From positions 372,001 to 436,000 of the forward strand of contig NZ_JACVOT010000001.1 of NCBI RefSeq assembly GCF_018882285.1: a stretch of DNA of 64,000 bases. Reading direction: 5' to 3'. The notes under the pieces are model-generated. The model was not told the DNA's origin, made no database searches, and worked only from the letters and a program-made list of their open reading frames with translations. Positions within the stretch are counted from its first letter, which is position 1; each line of letters begins with the position of its first letter. This stretch comes from Polynucleobacter sp. AM-26B4. GTDB taxonomy: Bacteria; Pseudomonadota; Gammaproteobacteria; Burkholderiales; Burkholderiaceae. The position numbers were made by a program, and so were the translations under genes. Positions 16,376-62,181 of this stretch are shown here, one piece after another.

Positions 16376-17530
16376 CTAAAAAGGTTCAAATCCAAAGAAG
16401 TAGGGAATGGCGCGGTTCTTAATTAAGAATCCGCCTTCCTCAGGACTCAATCCAAACTGATGAAGTTGGTCTGCGGAGAGTGTTTGCATGCGGTGATAGT
16501 CACGCGAACGACTGAATACGCCATTACGCCAGTTATAGATATTCTGGATTTTTTCGTTGTAAAGATAATGATGCTCGTTGTCATTATAAAAATCATCGAA
16601 CGAAGCTCTGCCCATATAAATAGAGTTAGATCCTTCATAACCGTCTTTCTCTGAAGAGTCTTTATCTGTATTCACAAAGTAAACCCAATCACCCGGGATA
16701 AAGTTCATGGGTGCCACCCGAGTTTGAATCTTTAAGAGCTTGCCTAAACGCTTTTGCTCATCCAGATTGATTGGCTTTTGAAAAGACCACATCGCACCAG
16801 GCTCAATGCCCACCAACACATCATCGTCTGATTTCAGTCTTTTGATAATGGCGTCGGCCATCGCATCATCTTTTTTTATTCTTCGAAAATAATCCAAGAT
16901 TCCCTGAATAATCACAATCTTCGTGGCGGTATAGCATCCCAAAGAACACTTATCAGGATTAATAAAAAAATCTCTCATGGCCTCATCTAGTGAAGCTTTT
17001 GGTTTTAAATTACCTTGATCCCAATAGCGTCGATTCCATTGAGCTGGCTCACCATCAGGAAAACTCCAATGAAGATGCTCGGACCAAGCCACAATCATTT
17101 GTCTAATTTGTATATGTTCTTTGAGGGCATCAATATGACAAGCATCCCCCTTGAAAATAGTCTCTCGACCCTCATGCATCAGAGCCAGCAGGATTTCTTT
17201 TTTGGAAACTGTTTCAACCTCAAGCAATGCTTCTTTACCCGGTAAAGAAATGCGCTCTTCAGTGATGCCGTATTGAGGATCCCATCGCAAATACAAGGTT
17301 CCATAAACTGATGGGTTTTTTAGACTCACACGCAGGCGACCCTCGCCCTGATGAACCTTATAAACGGATGTATCAATACCTAAGTCTTGTTGATAGGCAT
17401 TCAGTTGACCCTTTAATTGGTTCAGCTTATCTGATCCACACTCAAAAATCACACCACCATTGGTCTGAGCAGCCAAGGAAGTGGCTTGGGTCAAAATAAA
17501 TAAAGAGAAGATGATTGATCTTAAATTCAT
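16376..17530 (-). CDS. Exported Tgl-type (protein-glutamine gamma-glutamyltransferase family) homologue
   Basis: A 384-residue protein from the ATG at 17530 with signal peptide MNLRSIIFSLFILTQATSLAAQ. Longer in-frame starts would bury the signal sequence. The C-terminal half matches the core of Bacillus Tgl transglutaminase. A candidate nucleophile is Cys199 in GCYTATKIVIIQ, aligning with the CATAMVII segment of Tgl. FIPGDWVYFVN and YEGSNSIYMG follow, aligning with the VPGD-VYFKN and GEN-IYLG segments. About 170 N-terminal residues have no counterpart in Tgl. The Glu that precedes the Tgl nucleophile is Gly here. A paralogue lies at 53392-54537. Whether it cross-links, deamidates or hydrolyses is unknown. 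Confidence 0.65.
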   Translation of the reverse strand: MNLRSIIFSLFILTQATSLAAQTNGGVIFECGSDKLNQLKGQLNAYQQDLGIDTSVYKVHQGEGRLRVSLKNPSVYGTLYLRWDPQYGITEERISLPGKEALLEVETVSKKEILLALMHEGRETIFKGDACHIDALKEHIQIRQMIVAWSEHLHWSFPDGEPAQWNRRYWDQGNLKPKASLDEAMRDFFINPDKCSLGCYTATKIVIIQGILDYFRRIKKDDAMADAIIKRLKSDDDVLVGIEPGAMWSFQKPINLDEQKRLGKLLKIQTRVAPMNFIPGDWVYFVNTDKDSSEKDGYEGSNSIYMGRASFDDFYNDNEHHYLYNEKIQNIYNWRNGVFSRSRDYHRMQTLSADQLHQFGLSPEEGGFLIKNRAIPYFFGFEPF

Positions 17531-17640: not shown

Positions 17641-17999
17641 TGGTGGAGCCGGCGGGGATCGAACCCGCGTCCGCAAATCCTCCACATAGAGTTCTACATA
17701 CTTAGTTGTGTCATTTAATTTAACCAATCAGTCACGGACCAACACGTTACAGACTAGCGATTCACTAAATTTTCGAGTTACACATCGTGACATTATGTAA
17801 CCTTATCTCTTGTAAATGACCCTGATCTAACTTGCGTTAGCTGACCCAAGAGAGAATCAGTTCAGGGGCAACCGCAATTAAGCGGCTAGTGCGAAACGTT
17901 CGTCGTTTGCAGTTGTTGCATTCCCATTGTTTTACGAGATGACGGGTCCTCGGTATGCCCTCAATGCTTTGCAATCCACGTCGAAACCATGTCGGCCCC
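17641..17999 (-). ncRNA. ssrA: Transfer-messenger RNA (tmRNA, one-piece)
   Basis: About 359 nt. The 5' end GGGGCCG (from 17999) pairs with CGGCTCC before ACCA at 17641 to form a seven-pair acceptor stem with one G-U pair; the T-arm GGTTCGATCC and encoded CCA are present. A resume codon leads into the tag ANDERFALAA. tmRNA with SmpB rescues stalled ribosomes and tags the nascent chain for proteolysis. The molecule is not circularly permuted. It is transcribed away from hemS, whose stop is 54 bp upstream of the tmRNA 5' end, so its promoter must lie in or near that gap. Confidence 0.96.
17878..17910 (-). other. tmRNA tag reading frame (ANDERFALAA, TAA stop)
   Basis: Within ssrA, codons GCA AAC GAC GAA CGT TTC GCA CTA GCC GCT TAA encode the degradation tag. 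The Leu-Ala-Ala end is the form recognised by ClpXP-type proteases. Confidence 0.95.
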
Positions 18000-53391: not shown

Positions 53392-54537
53392 CTAATTAGA
53401 AAAATTTAAATCTGATGTGGATGGGCGAACATATCGCGGAGACTCTCTCGATGCATCAATACAACCACCGTCTTTGTAAACGCCTTGAGGATCTCGGTAA
53501 CACATCATTCGATCAATGATCATCTGATACTTTGATGGATCTGCCAATGATTGCTTGACGCAAGATTCAACAATTTCTTCATTCATATGCAATTCACCAT
53601 CATCACCAACAAATGCACCGTCCCGCCAGTGGTAAACCTCTACACACTTTGCCTCCAAACTGAATGGCTGATCTCTTTTCCAAAAATTGGTGAATAAGTT
53701 GTGGCCCAAATAGATGACCCAAGAGCCTTCATACCCAGAAATATCTGAAGAGCGGTCATCAGGATTACGGAACCATACGCGGTCCCCTGGCACGTAATAC
53801 TTCATGGGGAATGGATGATCTAAAGTGCCGTATTCTTTGAGAAAAATCTCATGAAACTCACCGGAGCGGATGGCACTTCTCTCAGAACGTAACTCGAGCT
53901 TTTTCAATAAGTCAGGATTCACATTTTTTAGCTCTTGAGCAATGCTGAGCAAGATCACGTATTCAGTGGCTCGATAACAAGAAAAAGAGTAAGCCTCTTT
54001 GGCACTCGGCGGTTGAGTGGCCTTGATCAAGCCATCGATGATCGACTGCCCTTTATTTAACAAAAACCCTTCTTCTTCGTCATAATGCCAATAATCCGTT
54101 GGTCTCTCAGCGGCTTCAGTATCAAAGTTCAAGGCTGCCTTAAAGCCAGCATTAACCACATAATGACGAATTCTGATGGCTGACACCAACTCATCAAAAC
54201 TAGGAAAAGTGAATGGGATGGTTGCCATCAACATTGCAACCAAGATTTCTTTCTCTAAATCTTCGGTATTTTTTTGACCATCAATGCCCATGGTCGAATA
54301 CAAGCGAGTGGTATCCCAAGCGGGTGCCCACTGCTCTCTAGCACTCTCTTTTAGTTTATAGGCACATTGATAGGTGCCGTTACCACTCAAGATAACTGCA
54401 TCGACGTGCTGCCACAACTGCAAGGCCTCCAGATGTCTTTGCATACTGGTCTGCAGGGCGCTTAACTCTTCGGTGGTCTTGACAACAAACTCAATCCCAC
54501 GAGACTCAAAGTGAATATTGGTTTGATTGGCTGTCAT
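53392..54537 (-). CDS. Tgl-type transglutaminase-family protein in the cyanophycin-associated operon
   Basis: A 381-residue soluble protein with no signal peptide. Cys187 in SFSCYRATEYVILLS aligns with the nucleophile segment of Bacillus Tgl, and YYVPGDRVWFRNPD and GYEGSWVIYLGHNLF align with the VPGD-VYFKN and GEN-IYLG segments. The Glu just before the Tgl nucleophile is Ser here, and the Glu of GEN has shifted to YEGS, as in the paralogue at 16376-17530. About 170 extra N-terminal residues are present. It lies 7 bp after a DUF1854 gene, itself overlapping an ABC transporter gene, with cphA'/cphA divergent. Direct action on cyanophycin or its processing proteins is only inference. Confidence 0.72.
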   Translation of the reverse strand: MTANQTNIHFESRGIEFVVKTTEELSALQTSMQRHLEALQLWQHVDAVILSGNGTYQCAYKLKESAREQWAPAWDTTRLYSTMGIDGQKNTEDLEKEILVAMLMATIPFTFPSFDELVSAIRIRHYVVNAGFKAALNFDTEAAERPTDYWHYDEEEGFLLNKGQSIIDGLIKATQPPSAKEAYSFSCYRATEYVILLSIAQELKNVNPDLLKKLELRSERSAIRSGEFHEIFLKEYGTLDHPFPMKYYVPGDRVWFRNPDDRSSDISGYEGSWVIYLGHNLFTNFWKRDQPFSLEAKCVEVYHWRDGAFVGDDGELHMNEEIVESCVKQSLADPSKYQMIIDRMMCYRDPQGVYKDGGCIDASRESPRYVRPSTSDLNFSN

Positions 54538-54544
54538 TATTTTT

Positions 54545-55021
54545 TTATAAGAATCTGTCCAACAATCTTCGACTGTGTTTGTCTAATGTCTGAATATTCT
54601 CTATAAGGTATTGAACACCATGATTATCAGAAATCAAATAAGTATCTTTACTGATACGACGAATATCTTCCTCACCCTTTAGAACAAACTGAGTGGCGCC
54701 CCGACTTGTTTCAACCGTCCAAGTACTAGGGGTTGCAAATGAAGAAACTTCAGCAATCTTTGTCAAAACTGGCATGAACTCTCTGTTGGCGAGCTCTTCT
54801 TTGATGATTGACTGATTCTCGGCGCTGACTTGATTTAAGTTGTCTAACCAAATTAATTCATGGCCATCACGATCAACGATTGCAATGCATTCTCCTGGCA
54901 GGCTGATAGGAAAAGCTTTGACTGGCAAAACCTGTTCGTAAAACTGTCCATCTTCAGTCCGCAAGCACAACTGGCCAAAAGTATTTTTTGATAAGGCGAA
55001 GTTCTTCATAGAATTACCCAT
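54545..55021 (-). CDS. DUF1854 family protein, cyanophycin-metabolism associated
   Basis: A 158-residue protein from the ATG at 55021, which overlaps the ABC gene stop by eight bases; an ATG four codons further in is also possible. Segments VKAFPISLPGECIAIVDRDGHELIWLDNL and RFMPVL-type REFMPVLTKIAEV, then DTYLISDNHGVQYLIENIQTLDKHSRRLLDRFL, match DUF1854. The C-terminal Asp-(Val/Gly)-(x)-Gln-Tyr-Leu and SRRLLDR parts are the most conserved. The family is known for standing next to an ABC exporter beside cyanophycin genes in Burkholderiales; its function is unknown. Confidence 0.88.
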   Translation of the reverse strand: MGNSMKNFALSKNTFGQLCLRTEDGQFYEQVLPVKAFPISLPGECIAIVDRDGHELIWLDNLNQVSAENQSIIKEELANREFMPVLTKIAEVSSFATPSTWTVETSRGATQFVLKGEEDIRRISKDTYLISDNHGVQYLIENIQTLDKHSRRLLDRFL

Positions 55022-57350
55022 TCTTCGCCCCCAACTCCGCATCAACTGCATCCATCGCTTGCCTAGCTTGAGTGTCATACATCCGACGATAGACACCGTT
55101 TAAATCCATGAGCTGATCATGTCCACCCTGCTCGATGATTTGACCTTTATCCAACACAATCAAGCGATCCGCTTTGCGCAGTGTTGATAAACGGTGTGCA
55201 ATGGCAATCGTGGTTCTACCTTTGACCAAATTATCCAAAGCCTTTTGAATCTCTTTTTCAGTCGTGCTATCCACTGATGAAGTTGCCTCATCCAGTATCA
55301 AGATCTGTGGATCAATTAACAAAGCTCTTGCAATCGAAATACGCTGTCTTTCACCGCCAGAGAGAGACTGACCTCTCTCACCAACCAAAGAGTCATAACC
55401 GTGAGGCAGTCTTAAGATAAATTCGTGAGCATGAGCTGCTCTTGCAGCAGAAATGATCTCTGCACGGCTTGCATTTGGTTTGCCGTAGGCAATATTTTCA
55501 GCAATCGTGCCGAAGAATAAAAATGGCTCTTGCAGCACCAAACCAATGTGTCTGCGATAGTCAGCCACAGCGATTGAACGAATATCAACGCCATCCAAGC
55601 GAATCGTGCCTTCGGCTGCGTCATAAAAACGACAAATCAAATTCACCAAAGTACTCTTACCAGAGCCACTATGACCAACCAAGCCGATCATTTCACCAGG
55701 AGCAATTTTTAAATTGATCCCTCGTGTCACAGAGCGATTACCGTACCTGAAGCCCACATTATTTAATTCTATGAGACCTTCTACTTTTGTTAGCTTGATT
55801 GGCTGACTTGGTTCTGGAACACTGGACACGTGATCCAAAATATCAAAAATACGTTTAGATGCCGTGGCCGCCTGTTGAGTGAAAGCAACAATGCGGCTCA
55901 TGGAGTCAAGACGTGTGTAGAAACGCCCAATGTATGCCAAGCACGCCGTCAACATACCAACTGTGATGGCATCGTGTGATATTTGCCAGATACCAAAAGC
56001 CCAAACCACCAACAATCCAATTTCTGTTAACAAAGTAATGGTTGGCGAGAACAAGGCCCAGACCTTATTCACTCGATCATTCACAGCCAAGTTATGTTCA
56101 TTGGCCAATCTAAAACGGTCAGACTCACGCTCTTCTTGGGCAAAGGCTTTCACGACACGAACACCTGGGATCGTGTCAGCCAACACACTCGTGACCTCTG
56201 ACCAAATGCGGTCTATCTTTTCAAAGCCATAACGCAATTTATCTCGCACCACATGAATGGCCCATCCAATGAATGGCAAAGGTATCAATGTCACCAAAGC
56301 CAACCAAGGATCGATAGAGATCAAGATGGCAGCTGTCATCAAAATCATCAAGACATCAGTTGCAAAGTCTAGAAGGTGTAATGACAAGAACAAGCAAATA
56401 CGATCTGACTCAGATCCAATGCGAGCCATCAAATCACCAGTTCTTTTGCCGCCAAAGTATTCCAAGGACAGCTTCATCAAATGTTGATAAGTGGTGGTGC
56501 GAAGATCGGCACCGATGCGCTCACTCACCAAAGCCAAAATATAGGTTTTGGCCCAGCCCAACACCCAAGCCAATATTGCGGCAGCCAGCAAGGCGCCCAA
56601 ATAAAGCAAAGTTAAATTGACATCGATGGCTTGACCATTTTGATAAGGCAACAAAATGTCATCCATCAATGGCATGGTCAGATAAGGTGGCACCAAGGTG
56701 GCAGCAGTAGAGGCAAGCGTTAAGACAAAGCCTGCAAACAATTGGCCTTTGTAAGGCTTAGCAAAGCGCCAGAGTCTTAATAAAGTCCAAGTTGATGGTG
56801 GCGTTAAGTTTTCTGAACTACAAGCTGGGCACTCGTCCTGATCAGGTGGTAATGGCACCCAACAAGTTGGACAAAGTGGCTGTGTAGTTTCAGCAAGCTC
56901 AGCATTAAATTTTCCTAAAGACTTGGCTAACTCAATATGAAAATGTTGAACCAGGCGATTGGCCACAGGATTTTGTGCCAATGTGAATCGCCAGCTAGCC
57001 AATCTTCCAGATTGGTTGAGCAACTCTAAATTTGCCACGCCAGCATGATCATGTAACTGCAATTTCAAGTCTTCTGAAAAAGACCATCTCGACCATGACG
57101 AAAAGTCTTCTTTGCTCGCAATCAGGCCTTGATTGGTTAAGCAAACCAATCCTTTTGCAAAATGCAGTTGTTCGTTGAGATCTAACTCCAAAACAGCAAT
57201 CACTGACTCATTGGTATTCAAAGTTTCAGCAATGGAGCGGCGCCATTCCTTTGGCAATCGTTCCAAAGGATCAGGATGGCTATGAATAGCGTTGGGGGTG
57301 GTAATAGAAGTAGTGGTCAAGGATGGCTTTATATCTTTATTTGTCGGCAA
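55014..57350 (-). CDS. ABC exporter with N-terminal zinc-ribbon-like segment, cyanophycin-metabolism associated
   Basis: A 778-residue half-transporter fused to an N-terminal ~180-residue domain. CPTC and CPAC pairs at about residues 160-176 look like a zinc ribbon. TMD helices lie at roughly 200-480, then an ATPase domain: Walker A GHSGSGKST near 560, Q-loop VLQEPFLF, signature LSGGERQR near 665, Walker B LILDEATSS near 683. It resembles ABCB-type exporters acting as homodimers. The only in-frame start before the N-domain is a TTG at 57350, so the exact start is uncertain. It is divergent from cphA' with 109 bp between. Confidence 0.88.
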   Translation of the reverse strand: MPTNKDIKPSLTTTSITTPNAIHSHPDPLERLPKEWRRSIAETLNTNESVIAVLELDLNEQLHFAKGLVCLTNQGLIASKEDFSSWSRWSFSEDLKLQLHDHAGVANLELLNQSGRLASWRFTLAQNPVANRLVQHFHIELAKSLGKFNAELAETTQPLCPTCWVPLPPDQDECPACSSENLTPPSTWTLLRLWRFAKPYKGQLFAGFVLTLASTAATLVPPYLTMPLMDDILLPYQNGQAIDVNLTLLYLGALLAAAILAWVLGWAKTYILALVSERIGADLRTTTYQHLMKLSLEYFGGKRTGDLMARIGSESDRICLFLSLHLLDFATDVLMILMTAAILISIDPWLALVTLIPLPFIGWAIHVVRDKLRYGFEKIDRIWSEVTSVLADTIPGVRVVKAFAQEERESDRFRLANEHNLAVNDRVNKVWALFSPTITLLTEIGLLVVWAFGIWQISHDAITVGMLTACLAYIGRFYTRLDSMSRIVAFTQQAATASKRIFDILDHVSSVPEPSQPIKLTKVEGLIELNNVGFRYGNRSVTRGINLKIAPGEMIGLVGHSGSGKSTLVNLICRFYDAAEGTIRLDGVDIRSIAVADYRRHIGLVLQEPFLFFGTIAENIAYGKPNASRAEIISAARAAHAHEFILRLPHGYDSLVGERGQSLSGGERQRISIARALLIDPQILILDEATSSVDSTTEKEIQKALDNLVKGRTTIAIAHRLSTLRKADRLIVLDKGQIIEQGGHDQLMDLNGVYRRMYDTQARQAMDAVDAELGAKNG

Positions 57351-57459: not shown

Positions 57460-59610
57460 ATGACTAAAAAAACTATAGAAATCATAGATATAAAGGTTCT
57501 TAAAGGACCCAGCATGTGGACCTATCGCCCGGTTTTAGAAGCCTGGGTCGATATACATGATCTAGAAGATTACCCCTCAAACACCCTGCCAGGCTTTACT
57601 GATAGGCTGGTGGCTTGGCTTCCCAGCCTGATTGAACATCGTTGCTCTTACGAGGAACGAGGCGGCTTCATCAAAAGACTTGAAGAAGGCACTTGGCCAG
57701 CACACATCCTTGAGCACGTGACCCTCGAACTACAGAATCTAGCTGGTATGCCAGGAGGCTTTGGTAAGGCTCGTGAGACCAATAAACGCGGTGTTTATAA
57801 AGTGGTGGTTCGGGCTTGGCATGAAAAGATCACTGAAAAAGCGCTTTATCACGCACGTGACTTGGTGATGGCCGCTATTGAAGATCGCCCATTTGATGTG
57901 CCAGCTGCCATCAAAGAAATTGAAGACATGGTCGATAGTCTTTATTTGGGCCCTAGCACTGCTTGCATCGTTGATGCAGCCAGAGAAAAGAAGATTCCAG
58001 CCACCAGATTATCTGAAGGCAATTTAGTTCAATTGGGTTATGGCAATAAGCAACGCAGAATTTGGACTGCTGAAACCGATTTGACCAGTGCGATTGCTGA
58101 AGGCATTTCAAAAGATAAAGACTTAACCAAATCTCTATTAGCCTCATGTGGCGTTCAGGTTCCTGAGGGTCGCATGGTGGATAGCGCTGAAGACGCCTGG
58201 GCTGCCGCTCAAGACATCGATGGCTCTGTGGTGGTCAAACCTTATGACGGCAATCACGCCAGGGGTGTGTTCACCAACCTATCAGATCAAGCCCAGATTA
58301 AAAAAGCCTATGACGACGCTTTAAAAGAAGGCAGCGGCGTGATTGTTGAACGCTACATACCAGGCAATGAGCATCGCTTATTGGTGGTTGGTAAAAAAGT
58401 AGTTGCTGCTGCCAAAGGTGAATCAGCTTGGGCCAAAGGTGATGGAAAAAGAAGCATCCGCGAACTGATTGAAGAAGAGATCAATACCGATCCTCGCCGT
58501 GGTGATGCAGAGATATTGCCATTGAGCCCTGTTGTCTTTGATACAAAATTAGAACTAGAGCTTGCGCGTCAAAACTTCACCTTGGACTCAATCCCTAAGG
58601 CAGGTCACGATGTTTTAGTTCAAGCTTCAGGCAACATGGCTTTTGAAGTGACTCACTTGGTTCATCCATCAGTTGCCGAACAAGCTGCCTTAGCTGCACG
58701 AGTGATTGGTTTAGATATTGCAGGTATTGATATCGTGGCTGAAGATATTTCGAAGCCACTTGAAGATCAAGGTGGTGCGATTGTTGAAGTCAATGCCGGA
58801 CCTGGCTTGATCATGCACCTTAAACCTGGTGTTGGTGAACCGCAACCAGTCGGCGCCGCAATCGTTGATCATCTCTTCCCGAATAATGCGGATGGACGAA
58901 TTCCAGTTGTTGGCATCACAGGATCACGCGGCAAAACCATGGTGGCGCAACTCACGACCCACTTGATGCAATTGACTGGTATGAAAGTAGGCTTAGCTTG
59001 CAGCAAGGGGGCCTTCTTCAATCATCGACTCCAAACCCAGGGCAATTGTGCCAACTGGATCAGTGCCAATCGAATCTTGCTAAACCGCCAGGTTGAGGCC
59101 GCAGTTTTTGAAAACGACAGCCGCACAATTTTGAATGAAGGTTTGGCATACGATCGCTGCACTGTTGGTGTGGTGACTAATCTTGATCCACTTGATACGG
59201 TACCTGAGTGCTCAATCACTGAACCAGAGCAAATTTATAACGTCTTACGAACTCAAGTAGACGTTGTATTACCCAAGGGATGCACCGTTCTTAATGCCGA
59301 TGATGAAGCAGTCGTCAACATGGCTGAACTATCAGATGGCGAAGTGATTTTCTTTAGTAAATATGGACCCAATGAACACACCAAGAAACATTTGCAAAAA
59401 GGTGGTCGAGCCCTGTTCACAGAAAACAATATGATCATCTTGGCAACGGGCACTGATCAATACTCACTCATCAGTACTGCCAGCATTCCTCTCTTACAAG
59501 CCAGCAGCAAAACCAATACTCTAGAAAGCATACTGGCTGCTGTCGCTGCAGCATGGTCTTTAAACATACCTAAAGACATCATTGCTGCAGGTCTTCAAAC
59601 TTACCAATAG
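57460..59610 (+). CDS. cphA': Short cyanophycin synthetase paralogue (CphA')
   Basis: A 716-residue protein. An N-terminal domain includes H82-I-L-E85-H86 within a segment close to cyanobacterial CphA1. An ATP-grasp domain runs from about residues 165 to 470 (GPSTACIVDAAREKKIP, VVVKPYDGNHARGV, IVEVNAGPGLIMHLKPGVG). A Mur-ligase domain begins with GITGSRGKT near residue 487. The Mur-ligase domain stops about 150 residues short of CphA, lacking the PGRFN / DYGHNP lobe. Thus it may have one working ATP site or depend on CphA. It lies 6 bp before cphA, so is probably cotranscribed and stoichiometric. Confidence 0.87.
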   Translation: MTKKTIEIIDIKVLKGPSMWTYRPVLEAWVDIHDLEDYPSNTLPGFTDRLVAWLPSLIEHRCSYEERGGFIKRLEEGTWPAHILEHVTLELQNLAGMPGGFGKARETNKRGVYKVVVRAWHEKITEKALYHARDLVMAAIEDRPFDVPAAIKEIEDMVDSLYLGPSTACIVDAAREKKIPATRLSEGNLVQLGYGNKQRRIWTAETDLTSAIAEGISKDKDLTKSLLASCGVQVPEGRMVDSAEDAWAAAQDIDGSVVVKPYDGNHARGVFTNLSDQAQIKKAYDDALKEGSGVIVERYIPGNEHRLLVVGKKVVAAAKGESAWAKGDGKRSIRELIEEEINTDPRRGDAEILPLSPVVFDTKLELELARQNFTLDSIPKAGHDVLVQASGNMAFEVTHLVHPSVAEQAALAARVIGLDIAGIDIVAEDISKPLEDQGGAIVEVNAGPGLIMHLKPGVGEPQPVGAAIVDHLFPNNADGRIPVVGITGSRGKTMVAQLTTHLMQLTGMKVGLACSKGAFFNHRLQTQGNCANWISANRILLNRQVEAAVFENDSRTILNEGLAYDRCTVGVVTNLDPLDTVPECSITEPEQIYNVLRTQVDVVLPKGCTVLNADDEAVVNMAELSDGEVIFFSKYGPNEHTKKHLQKGGRALFTENNMIILATGTDQYSLISTASIPLLQASSKTNTLESILAAVAAAWSLNIPKDIIAAGLQTYQ

Positions 59611-59616
59611 TCAATC

Positions 59617-62181
59617 ATGGAATTAATTCGCATACGCGCTCTCAGAGGTCCTAATTTTTGGGGCAAACACACTTCTCTAGAGGCATTGGTCAAGTGCGAA
59701 GAAAACGAAAAAATCATCACCAATATTTCTGGTTTTGAAACTCGCTTGCGTGAACGCTTTCCACAACTCGGCCCATTGCGCCCACACACACAAAATGAAA
59801 CCGTCTCTTTAGCTCATGCATTAGAGGTGTGCTCAAGAGACCTGCAAGCTCAAGCAGGATGCCCGATCACTTTCAGCCGAACCATGTCAACACCTGATGA
59901 TGGTGTGTACATTGTCGTCGTTGAATACACCGAAGAAAAAGTCGGTCGCTTGGCACTTGATTTGGCCATGCAGTTATGTCGTTCAGCTCTAATTGATAAC
60001 GGCTCACACCTCGATGAATACCTCAAGCAATTAAGAGATTTGGATGAAGATATTCGTCTGGGGCCAAGCACTGGATCAATCGTTGAAGCTGCCATTGCGC
60101 GCGGCATCCCTTATCGTCGTTTAACCGAAGGTAGCATGGTTCAGTTAGGCTGGGGCAGTAAACAACGCCGCATCCAAGCTGCTGAAACAAGCTCTACCAG
60201 TGCGATTGCTGAATCAATTGCCCAAGATAAGCAGTTAACCAAAGACTTACTCCATGCTGCTGGCGTGCCAGTACCCATGGGAAAAATTGTGACCACTGCT
60301 GAAGAAGCATGGGAAGCTTATTTAGAAATCAAGTCCCCTGTAGCAGTCAAGCCACGTGACGGCAATCAAGGTAAAGGTGTTGCAGTCAATATTGATAATC
60401 GCGAGCAAATAGAGATTGCCTTTAAAGCAGCCTCAGCCATTTCTTCTGAAGTGATTGTTGAGCGTTACATGCCAGGACATGATCATCGTCTTTTAATCAT
60501 CGGCGGTCAGTTAGTAGCAGCCGCTCGTCGTGAACCGCCCTACGTGATTGGTAATAATAAAAACACTGTTCGCGAATTAGTGGAAGAAGTGAACAAAGAT
60601 CCTTTAAGAGGTGATGGTCACGCCACTTCACTGAGCAAGATTCGTATCGATGAAATCGCTATTGCTACTCTTAAGAATCAGCAACTGACTCCAGACTCGA
60701 TTCCTCCAAAAGGTTTGCGCGTCACCTTGCGCAACAATGCGAACTTAAGCACCGGTGGCACCGCCACTGATGTGACTGATGACGTCCACCCAGACCTAGC
60801 TGTTTCAGCCATTGCCGCAGCACAAATGGTTGGCTTGGATATTTGTGGAGTAGACGTGGTTTGTGACAACGTTTACAGACCACTAGAAGAACAAGGTGGC
60901 GGCATTGTTGAAGTCAATGCCGCACCAGGGTTGCGCATGCACTTGCATCCTTCTTACGGTAAAGGTAGACCAGTTGGTGAAGCCATTATTTCAACCATGT
61001 TTGGTAAAGAAGATGATGGCCGAATTCCAGTGGTGGCAGTGACCGGCACGAATGGCAAAACAACCACAGTTAAATTGATGAGCCACCTGTTTGAGCAACA
61101 AGGTTTGCGTGTTGGCCATACAGGCACGGATGGTGTTTATGTGAATGGCAAAAGAATCGACACAGGAGACTGTAGCGGCCCTAAGAGCGCACGCAATGTC
61201 TTGATGCACCCAGACGTTGATGCCGCTGTTTTAGAGACGGCACGGGGCGGTATTTTGCGTGAGGGTCTCGGCTTTGATCGTTGCCAGGTTGCGATTGTGA
61301 CTAATTTGGGCGAAGGCGATCACCTTGGCATGAATTACATCAACACCACCTCAGAGTTAGCCGCTGTTAAACGTGTGATTGTTCAAAACGTGGCCAGCAA
61401 TGGTATGGCTGTTCTTAATGCAGCAGACCCGATGGTTGCCAAGATGGCAAAGTCTTGCCCTGGCCAAGTCACTTTCTTCGCAAGAGATATTCAGCACCCA
61501 GTGATGGCAAAGCATCGTGCTCAAGGTCAGCGCGTGGTTTTTGTTGAAAACAACAAAATCGTTGCAAGCGAAGGTAAAAAAGAATTCCATATTGACTTGA
61601 ACCAAGTACCTGTCACGGTCAATGGCAGCATCAGTTTTCAGGTAGAAAATGTCCTAGCAGCAGTTGGAGCTGCATGGGCATTGAATATTTCTTGGGAAAC
61701 GATTGCTGAAGCATTAGAAACATTTGTGAGCGACTCACAAACAGTGCCTGGTCGCTTTAATATATTCAAACATCAGGGTGCCACAGTGATTGCTGATTAC
61801 GGCCATAACCCAGATGCAATCAAAGCCCTATCAGAAACCATCATCAACATGCCTGCCAAGAAACGCATGGTTGTGATCAGTGGTGCCGGTGATCGTCGCG
61901 ATGAAGACTTGCGCCGCCAAACAGAAATCCTTGGACAGTACTTCGATCACGTGATTCTCTATGAAGACCAATGCCAACGTGGCCGTCCAGACGGCGAAGT
62001 GATTGGCATCATGAGAGAAGGCTTGATGGCCTCAAAACAAGTCAAGAAAATTCAAGAATTCCATGGCGAGTTTTTAGCCATAGACCAAGCTTTATCTCAA
62101 ATTGAAGCAGGCGACGTTTGCCTTATTTTGGTTGATCAGGTTGAAGAGTCTTTGGCCCACATCGCCAAAAATGTTCGCTGA
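59617..62181 (+). CDS. cphA: Cyanophycin synthetase
   Basis: An 854-residue polymerase that makes multi-L-arginyl-poly-L-aspartate, a nitrogen-storage granule. ATP-grasp domain, which adds Asp: GPSTGSIVEAAIARGIP, VAVKPRDGNQGKGV, IVEVNAAPGLRMHLHPS. Mur-ligase domain, which adds Arg: VTGTNGKTTT near residue 476, ETARGGILREGLGFDRC, PGRFN near 710 and DYGHNPDAIKAL near 727. In the N-domain the motif corresponding to HILEH of CphA' is H67-A-L-E70-V71, so the second His is lost. It follows cphA' by 6 bp; no cyanophycinase gene is in the window. Confidence 0.96.
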   Translation: MELIRIRALRGPNFWGKHTSLEALVKCEENEKIITNISGFETRLRERFPQLGPLRPHTQNETVSLAHALEVCSRDLQAQAGCPITFSRTMSTPDDGVYIVVVEYTEEKVGRLALDLAMQLCRSALIDNGSHLDEYLKQLRDLDEDIRLGPSTGSIVEAAIARGIPYRRLTEGSMVQLGWGSKQRRIQAAETSSTSAIAESIAQDKQLTKDLLHAAGVPVPMGKIVTTAEEAWEAYLEIKSPVAVKPRDGNQGKGVAVNIDNREQIEIAFKAASAISSEVIVERYMPGHDHRLLIIGGQLVAAARREPPYVIGNNKNTVRELVEEVNKDPLRGDGHATSLSKIRIDEIAIATLKNQQLTPDSIPPKGLRVTLRNNANLSTGGTATDVTDDVHPDLAVSAIAAAQMVGLDICGVDVVCDNVYRPLEEQGGGIVEVNAAPGLRMHLHPSYGKGRPVGEAIISTMFGKEDDGRIPVVAVTGTNGKTTTVKLMSHLFEQQGLRVGHTGTDGVYVNGKRIDTGDCSGPKSARNVLMHPDVDAAVLETARGGILREGLGFDRCQVAIVTNLGEGDHLGMNYINTTSELAAVKRVIVQNVASNGMAVLNAADPMVAKMAKSCPGQVTFFARDIQHPVMAKHRAQGQRVVFVENNKIVASEGKKEFHIDLNQVPVTVNGSISFQVENVLAAVGAAWALNISWETIAEALETFVSDSQTVPGRFNIFKHQGATVIADYGHNPDAIKALSETIINMPAKKRMVVISGAGDRRDEDLRRQTEILGQYFDHVILYEDQCQRGRPDGEVIGIMREGLMASKQVKKIQEFHGEFLAIDQALSQIEAGDVCLILVDQVEESLAHIAKNVR

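Follow-up and report, generated by a model that had tools for sequence, protein, structure and literature searches.

Two Tgl-fold proteins with altered active sites are candidates for a step in cyanophycin handling in Polynucleobacter

To our knowledge, Tgl-like proteins have been thought to be limited to spore-formers. The locus described here raises the question of what two such proteins do in Polynucleobacter sp. AM-26B4, which is not a spore-former. We analyzed a stretch of 64,000 nucleotides of its genome (hereafter, the window; positions 372,001 to 436,000 of contig NZ_JACVOT010000001.1), and all positions are counted from the first letter of that stretch. The original prediction, made from the sequence alone, had placed in the window two Tgl-family paralogues of similar length, about 380 residues, and both open reading frames are present:

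16376..17530, minus strand: 16-type Tgl-fold protein, predicted to be exported, 384 aa from its ATG (PF20085, 60 bits; AlphaFold2 model)
53392..54537, minus strand: 53-type Tgl-fold protein, predicted to be cytoplasmic, 381 aa (PF20085, 119.7 bits; predicted model)

In a Pfam scan, both proteins passed the curated cut-off of 23.7 bits for PF20085 (TGL), with E-values of 2.7e-16 for the 16.4-kb protein and 1.6e-34 for the 53.4-kb protein. They are distant paralogues (26% identity), and the profiles of the two families align over 325 columns with a probability of 99.8 and an E-value of 1.9e-30; together with the PF20085 matches, these values establish homology of the two proteins rather than a coincidence of motifs. 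The shared blocks that had been noticed at the outset, Cys-Tyr-x-Ala-Thr, PGD-V-F and YEGS--IY(M/L)G, can be read as CYTAT, PGDWVYF and GYEGSNSIYMG in the 16.4-kb protein and as CYRAT, PGDRVWF and GYEGSWVIYLG in the 53.4-kb protein. Two alignments were used for comparisons within the family: A2, which contains 26 53-type proteins from the 59 53-type loci in hand, and A4, which contains 56 of 70 16-type loci and both window proteins, 14 partial or redundant loci having been dropped. All 58 members of A4 and all 26 of A2 matched PF20085 (E 0.001). Among all 70 16-type loci, the Cys motif is missing in L183, L189 and L191 and the YEG motif in L123 and L191, all of which are partial matches. Pfam and NCBIfam scans of both proteins returned TGL models only, with no membership in cyanophycinase S51/TIGR02069. 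Among named relatives, the one closest to the 16.4-kb protein comes from Polynucleobacter cosmopolitanus, in whose genome both types are present. A mobile or viral origin was rejected, since a plasmid search matched neither protein, viral contigs held no confirmed 53-type relative, and viral structures gave no match to the 16-type model at E 0.001.

By score and by predicted fold, both proteins belong to PF20085. The AlphaFold2 model of the 16-type protein has a mean pLDDT of 90.4 and a pTM of 0.90, and the sole Foldseek matches at E < 0.001 were two Tgl structures. VIA-align placed this model on Tgl 4p8i with Z 18.4 (224 residues, 3.2 Å) and on Tgl 7c9j with Z 15.9, followed by NlpC/P60-type proteins at Z 5.8 and below. 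The 53-type model was built from its own sequence and 16-type rows only and is weaker for that reason (pLDDT 71.0); its best PDB match is again 4p8i (Z 15.1, 226 residues, 4.0 Å). For both models, the next structural matches after the two Tgl structures lie at Z of about 6. Cys199 opens a long helix (199-218) in the 16-type model and Cys187 opens another (187-206) in the 53-type model, which in these predictions is the placement expected of a papain-like nucleophile; the modeled core around the Cys is papain-like in both proteins, with Tgl as the best fit. NlpC/P60 cysteine peptidases share this core (Z of about 4 to 6 to several members); however, the structural match is far weaker than that to Tgl, and neither protein has a Pfam NlpC/P60 match. 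With the spore-coat transglutaminase Tgl of B. subtilis (4p8i, 4pa5) and the Tgl of Geobacillus (7c9j), both proteins have in common PF20085, the predicted fold, the Cys opening the core helix, the PGDxxxF and YLG strands, a Tyr or Trp at the Tyr171 position and mostly Tyr or Phe at the Trp184 position. In contrast to the solved chains of 254-260 residues, the proteins described here have about 380, and the extra N-terminal residues adopt an alpha/beta pattern in both models.

The proteins also differ from Tgl in the active site, for which four codons are relevant:

16934..16936, minus strand: Cys199 codon, presumed nucleophile of the 16-type (57/57 16-type rows of A4; aligned to Tgl Cys116)
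16634..16636, minus strand: Glu299 codon, invariant Glu of the 16-type at the Tgl Arg185 position (57/57 rows; alignment to 7c9j)
53977..53979, minus strand: Cys187 codon, presumed nucleophile of the 53-type (Cys motif in 59/59 53-type proteins; aligned to Tgl Cys116)
53728..53730, minus strand: Glu270 codon, invariant Glu of the 53-type at the Tgl Arg185 position (G[YF]EGS in 59/59 53-type proteins)

In the HMMER alignment to Geobacillus Tgl 7c9j, E115-C116 corresponds to S186-C187 in the 53.4-kb protein and to G198-C199 in the 16.4-kb protein, and W-Q-G-E-N corresponds to Y-E-G-S-W and Y-E-G-S-N, respectively. In B. subtilis numbering, Glu115 is replaced by Ser or Gly, Glu187 by Ser and Arg185 by Glu, in agreement with the original prediction, which had read Gly or Ser in place of the Glu before the nucleophile, and Ser in place of the Glu of the GEN segment, with a Glu two positions earlier (YEGS). 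Across the branch, the Glu115 position is Ser in all 26 A2 rows and Gly in all 57 16-type rows, the Glu187 position is Ser (Ala in 2 of 57 16-type rows), and the Arg185 position is Glu in all 83 aligned proteins, i.e., the 26 A2 rows and the 57 16-type rows of A4. Every row that extends to the nucleophile has the Cys (59/59 53-type and 57/57 aligned 16-type proteins). Judging by these alignments, both catalytic Glu residues of Tgl are lost and another Glu is under strong selection across the branch, and on these replacements the original prediction holds. The new Glu may be the base or a residue of substrate binding; the catalytic set may be rearranged, as had been proposed, and the chemistry may differ from gamma-glutamyl transfer. 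The Tyr171 position is Trp in the 26 A2 rows and Tyr in 56 of 57 16-type rows. The position that we take to be His200, counted on from the conserved Phe in Tgl numbering as we assume it, is Phe or Tyr (A4 columns 311-315). The 53-type also has a second conserved Cys near the C-terminus (GGC[IL]D, residues 357-361) in 58 of 59 proteins, and in the remaining one a contig end truncates the protein; in the 16-type the GG of this motif is retained, the Cys is not.

Such changes bear directly on the possibility that both proteins cross-link other proteins, as the Bacillus transglutaminase Tgl does, with the shifted Glu as the base; the cytoplasmic one would then weld a coat of protein on cyanophycin granules, and the exported one would link proteins of the envelope. 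According to passages of PMC6490927, Tgl works with Cys116 and Glu187 or Glu115; the mutants C116A, E115A and H200A are inactive, and E187A retains about 60% of activity, which indicates that this position is not strictly needed. In the same source, Arg185 lies where the Gln donor enters, at the front of the tunnel; six entrance residues were selected there, and all but Arg185 are well conserved among Tgl homologues. Cross-linking is favored by the shared family and fold (matches to Tgl with Z 18.4 and 15.1), by the Trp or Tyr at the Tyr171 position and by the activity that E187A retains. Conversely, E115A and H200A abolish Tgl activity, yet the Glu115 position is invariably Ser or Gly in the aligned proteins, and both proteins fall far below the cut-off of 307 bits of the NCBIfam transglutaminase equivalog NF002869 (43.4 and 33.7 bits). 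Because the catalytic Glu residues are absent and this cut-off is missed, we do not class the two proteins as Tgl transglutaminases proper, although they may work like a transglutaminase; cross-linking is a possible, if rather doubtful, reading.

The two types are predicted to differ in location, as had been proposed from a signal peptide in one of the two proteins. Three features of the 16-type gene are involved:

17465..17530, minus strand: predicted signal peptide covering residues 1-22 (KD window of 2.2 in a hydrophobic stretch; low pLDDT at residues 1-22)
17438..17440, minus strand: Cys31 codon, first member of an additional Cys pair that is invariant (57/57 16-type rows; V and a gap at the pair in the 53-type protein of the window)
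17138..17140, minus strand: Cys131 codon, partner of Cys31 in a possible disulfide (57/57 16-type rows)

A strongly hydrophobic N-terminal window of 11 residues (KD > 2.0) is present in 49 of the 57 readable 16-type N-termini (of 70 loci), and in 2 of 58 53-type entries by the same criterion, the protein of the window being counted twice among the latter. Exactly three Cys residues occur in the aligned stretch of 47 of 57 16-type A4 rows. A Cys31-Cys131 disulfide would fit export, and the 53-type protein of the window lacks the pair. Export of the 16.4-kb protein and a cytoplasmic place for the 53.4-kb protein thus stand as predictions, consistent with the hydrophobic N-terminus, the low-confidence residues 1-22 and the Cys pair. 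The exported Tgl gene is closely preceded, on its own strand, by a tmRNA gene (17641-17999), and a hairpin resembling a terminator separates the two.

The context of the 53.4-kb gene was overlooked in the original prediction. It belongs to a cyanophycin locus:

54545..55009, minus strand: cyanophycin-associated DUF1854 protein, separated by 7 bp from the 53-type gene downstream (NF052234, 218.6 bits; spacing from sequence)
55014..57350, minus strand: cyanophycin-associated ABC transporter, separated by 4 bp from DUF1854 downstream (NF052233, 1376.8 bits; spacing from sequence)
57460..59610, plus strand: cphA', shorter cyanophycin synthetase homologue (NF010623, 1027.8 bits, profile 1-714 of 871)
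59617..62181, plus strand: cphA, cyanophycin synthetase (NF010623, 1227.9 bits; TIGR02068, 980.8 bits)

The ABC transporter gene, DUF1854 and the 53.4-kb Tgl gene follow each other in this order as a tight operon, on the strand opposite to cphA' and cphA. Two CphA homologues thus stand side by side, the first of which (cphA') lacks the C-terminal part of the profile. The 16.4-kb gene is outside this locus, 36 kb away in the window; one Tgl gene is in the operon, and both types track the cluster across the order, as described below. All four genes of the cyanophycin-associated cluster (NF052233 ABC, NF052234 DUF1854, cphA and cphA') are together in the window; however, the Tgl proteins match none of its NCBIfam models, and membership of a Tgl gene in the cluster is occasional.

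Within the genus, PF20085 was found in 31 and cphA in 164 of 186 genomes. All 31 Tgl-bearing genomes have cphA, compared to 133 of the 155 without PF20085 (Fisher p 0.03). Of 30 loci read in the 31 Tgl-bearing genomes, 14 show DUF1854-Tgl adjacency, and the remaining ones are elsewhere or on short contigs. In six Polynucleobacter genomes (L091-L095, L100), a divergent 53-type gene adjoins another ABC exporter gene; that of L093, the sole one of the six that was scanned, is MsbA-like (TIGR02204, 773 bits, just under the cut-off).

We then considered 399 genomes drawn from the order, of which 40 have PF20085 and 133 have the cyanophycin ABC gene (NF052233). The ABC gene is present in 36 of the 40 PF20085 genomes vs. 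97 of the 359 others (p 5e-15, a statistic that ignores kinship among genomes); counted by genus, in a tally made by hand, it is present in 23 of 26 with PF20085 vs. 37 of 132 without (p 9e-9, kinship below the genus level being uncorrected). Among the four PF20085 genomes without the ABC gene, G305 and G469 have cphA, and G337 and G492, both estimated to be 100% complete, do not. The PF20085 hits in G536 (ABC gene present) and G492 (absent) are weak and assignable to neither type. Since only 36 of the 133 ABC-positive genomes have PF20085 and 97 do not, Tgl is dispensable for the cyanophycin pathway. A phylum-wide draw of 398 genomes, for which the share outside this order is unstated, yielded PF20085 in 4 genomes, all of this order.

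Outside the genus, the neighborhoods of the 53-type genes were read in all 31 genomes as far as the contigs reach. Five of the 31 genes lie in a cyanophycin cluster, in four layouts: (i) the order of the window's operon (L081); (ii) convergent to DUF1854 (L082, L084); (iii) convergent to cphA (L063); and (iv) behind cphA on the same strand (L072). The other 26 are not beside the cluster. A binomial check of this linkage at a 1% chance rate gave about 1e-5 (n = 29). Unguided clustering of neighbors within 4 kb found the CphA family in the same five of 31 loci, and the sole commoner group was that of lumped ABC-type ATPases (11 loci). In the 53-type tree, L034 and L044 are among unlinked genes, L044 being paired with moderate support, L054 and L057 branch off at a base that lacks resolution, and L055 at a weakly supported fork; a table of tree groups counts a single change for the five outside genes with linkage, ignoring 43 ungrouped rows and carrying a long-branch warning. 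Repeated gain or loss of linkage to the cyanophycin cluster is at most suggested by this tree, and the readings below do not rest on it.

The exported type tracks the cluster by presence. Outside the genus, the ABC gene was found in 9 of 9 genomes with the 16-type in the order sample, and in a second set of 50 genomes (drawn from the 70 named 16-type loci after setting aside Polynucleobacter, the genomes of the earlier sample and a number of partial or redundant loci) it was found in 41 at E 1e-150, of which 38 exceed the model cut-off. Each of the nine without it is a metagenome bin, and two belong to Bdellovibrionota. Among the 16-type genes read, none is beside the cyanophycin cluster, and a shared operon for the exported type was rejected, the commonest neighbor family within 4 kb occurring in 6 of the 70 named loci. 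Ten neighbor proteins of 53- and 16-type genes were compared with NCBIfam (E 1e-20): five gave no match and the rest are ordinary. L132 has a fragment resembling an ABC protein (55% identity to the cyanophycin ABC); its best score is to MsbA, and the NF052233 match in that genome lies on a different contig. One bin labeled Myxococcales (L168) has a 16-type gene and a cyanophycin ABC gene in the same assembly (994 bits), either by transfer or as a mislabeled bin.

These counts leave room for an indirect link, in which Tgl and cyanophycin genes both occur patchily in one and the same set of beta-proteobacteria, the enzyme having an envelope or stress function unrelated to the polymer. Most of the genes are unlinked, the 16-type has no common neighbor, and the association was computed across related genomes. 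Against this, the five clustered cases outside the genus come in four different layouts, and the enrichment is also seen at the genus level; we regard an indirect link as unlikely.

Another possibility is that the proteins are hydrolases, i.e., a lineage-specific cyanophycin-degrading enzyme that replaces the missing cyanophycinase where it is present. The genome of the window (1.67 Mb, estimated to be complete) has no match, at the limits used, to cyanophycinase TIGR02069, IaaA PF01112 or IadA TIGR01975. This absence of all three matches the published beta-proteobacterial gap: in passages of PMC10206079, a recognizable cyanophycinase is reported for 2.8% of 903 beta-proteobacterial cphA1 genomes, which is called unanticipated there, and isozymes yet unknown are suggested to break down cyanophycin in these bacteria. 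In our sample, TIGR02069 was found in 4 of 80 ABC- or cphA-bearing genomes of the order (38 of the 40 PF20085 genomes and 42 of the 97 others), and the NlpC/P60 relatives among the structural matches listed are mostly named peptidases or hydrolases. However, TIGR02069 is equally rare with PF20085 (2 of 38) and without it (2 of 42), and 97 of the 133 cyanophycin-cluster genomes have no PF20085, so that another general solution must exist. On these grounds a universal missing cyanophycinase was rejected, and even the lineage-specific form is improbable. It can be that the Tgl branch performs one lineage-specific step, whether hydrolysis, transamidation or cross-linking. Literature searches on cyanophycin together with transglutaminase or glutamyltransferase, on DUF1854 clusters, on Polynucleobacter and on Burkholderia/Cupriavidus cyanophycinase gave no link between Tgl and cyanophycin among the matches listed, parts of PMC7522526 included, and the terms "transglut" and "glutamyltransferase" are absent from the main text of PMC10206079. 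Finally, catalytically dead binding proteins that retain the Tgl fold would explain the loss of both catalytic Glu residues, but are highly improbable given the invariant Cys (59/59 and 57/57) and the new invariant Glu.

Both proteins are candidates for a step in cyanophycin handling, because their active sites are altered and they occur mostly in cyanophycin-making relatives. The reading that we prefer, with a probability of roughly one in three (about 0.35), is that the beta-proteobacterial Tgl branch is a thiol acyl-transfer accessory of cyanophycin metabolism, acting on cyanophycin or material derived from it; it joins the family, predicted fold, invariant Cys and Glu change to the co-occurrence and partial clustering with cphA, cphA', the ABC gene and DUF1854. 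In this accessory, Cys199 or Cys187 would attack a side-chain amide to form an acyl-enzyme, and the acyl group would be passed on to an amine or water. The likeliest target would be the beta-aspartyl-arginine amide of cyanophycin or a product of the polymer, as this amide comes closest there to the side-chain amide of Gln. At the acyl-donor entrance, the invariant Glu might stand in for the lost catalytic Glu or hold the arginine guanidinium. The 53-type would act on the polymer in the cytoplasm. The exported 16-type would have its substrate beyond the cytoplasm, perhaps delivered there by the cyanophycin-associated ABC transporter. In this full form, the proposal (cytoplasmic and exported versions of a thiol enzyme that has the Tgl fold, a rebuilt active site and the beta-aspartyl-arginine amides of cyanophycin as substrate) is speculative and distinctly doubtful.

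If this full form holds, it would add a new step of cyanophycin processing, which may fill part of the beta-proteobacterial gap in degradation or modification, and would mean that cyanophycin-derived material also leaves the cytoplasm. The branch would also show that the small transglutaminase fold is able to swap its acid/base residue. The branch is a family with a presumed catalytic Cys that tracks the synthesis cluster statistically and, in part, physically; part of the degradation question can therefore be put to the test with a single purified protein and a single knock-out.
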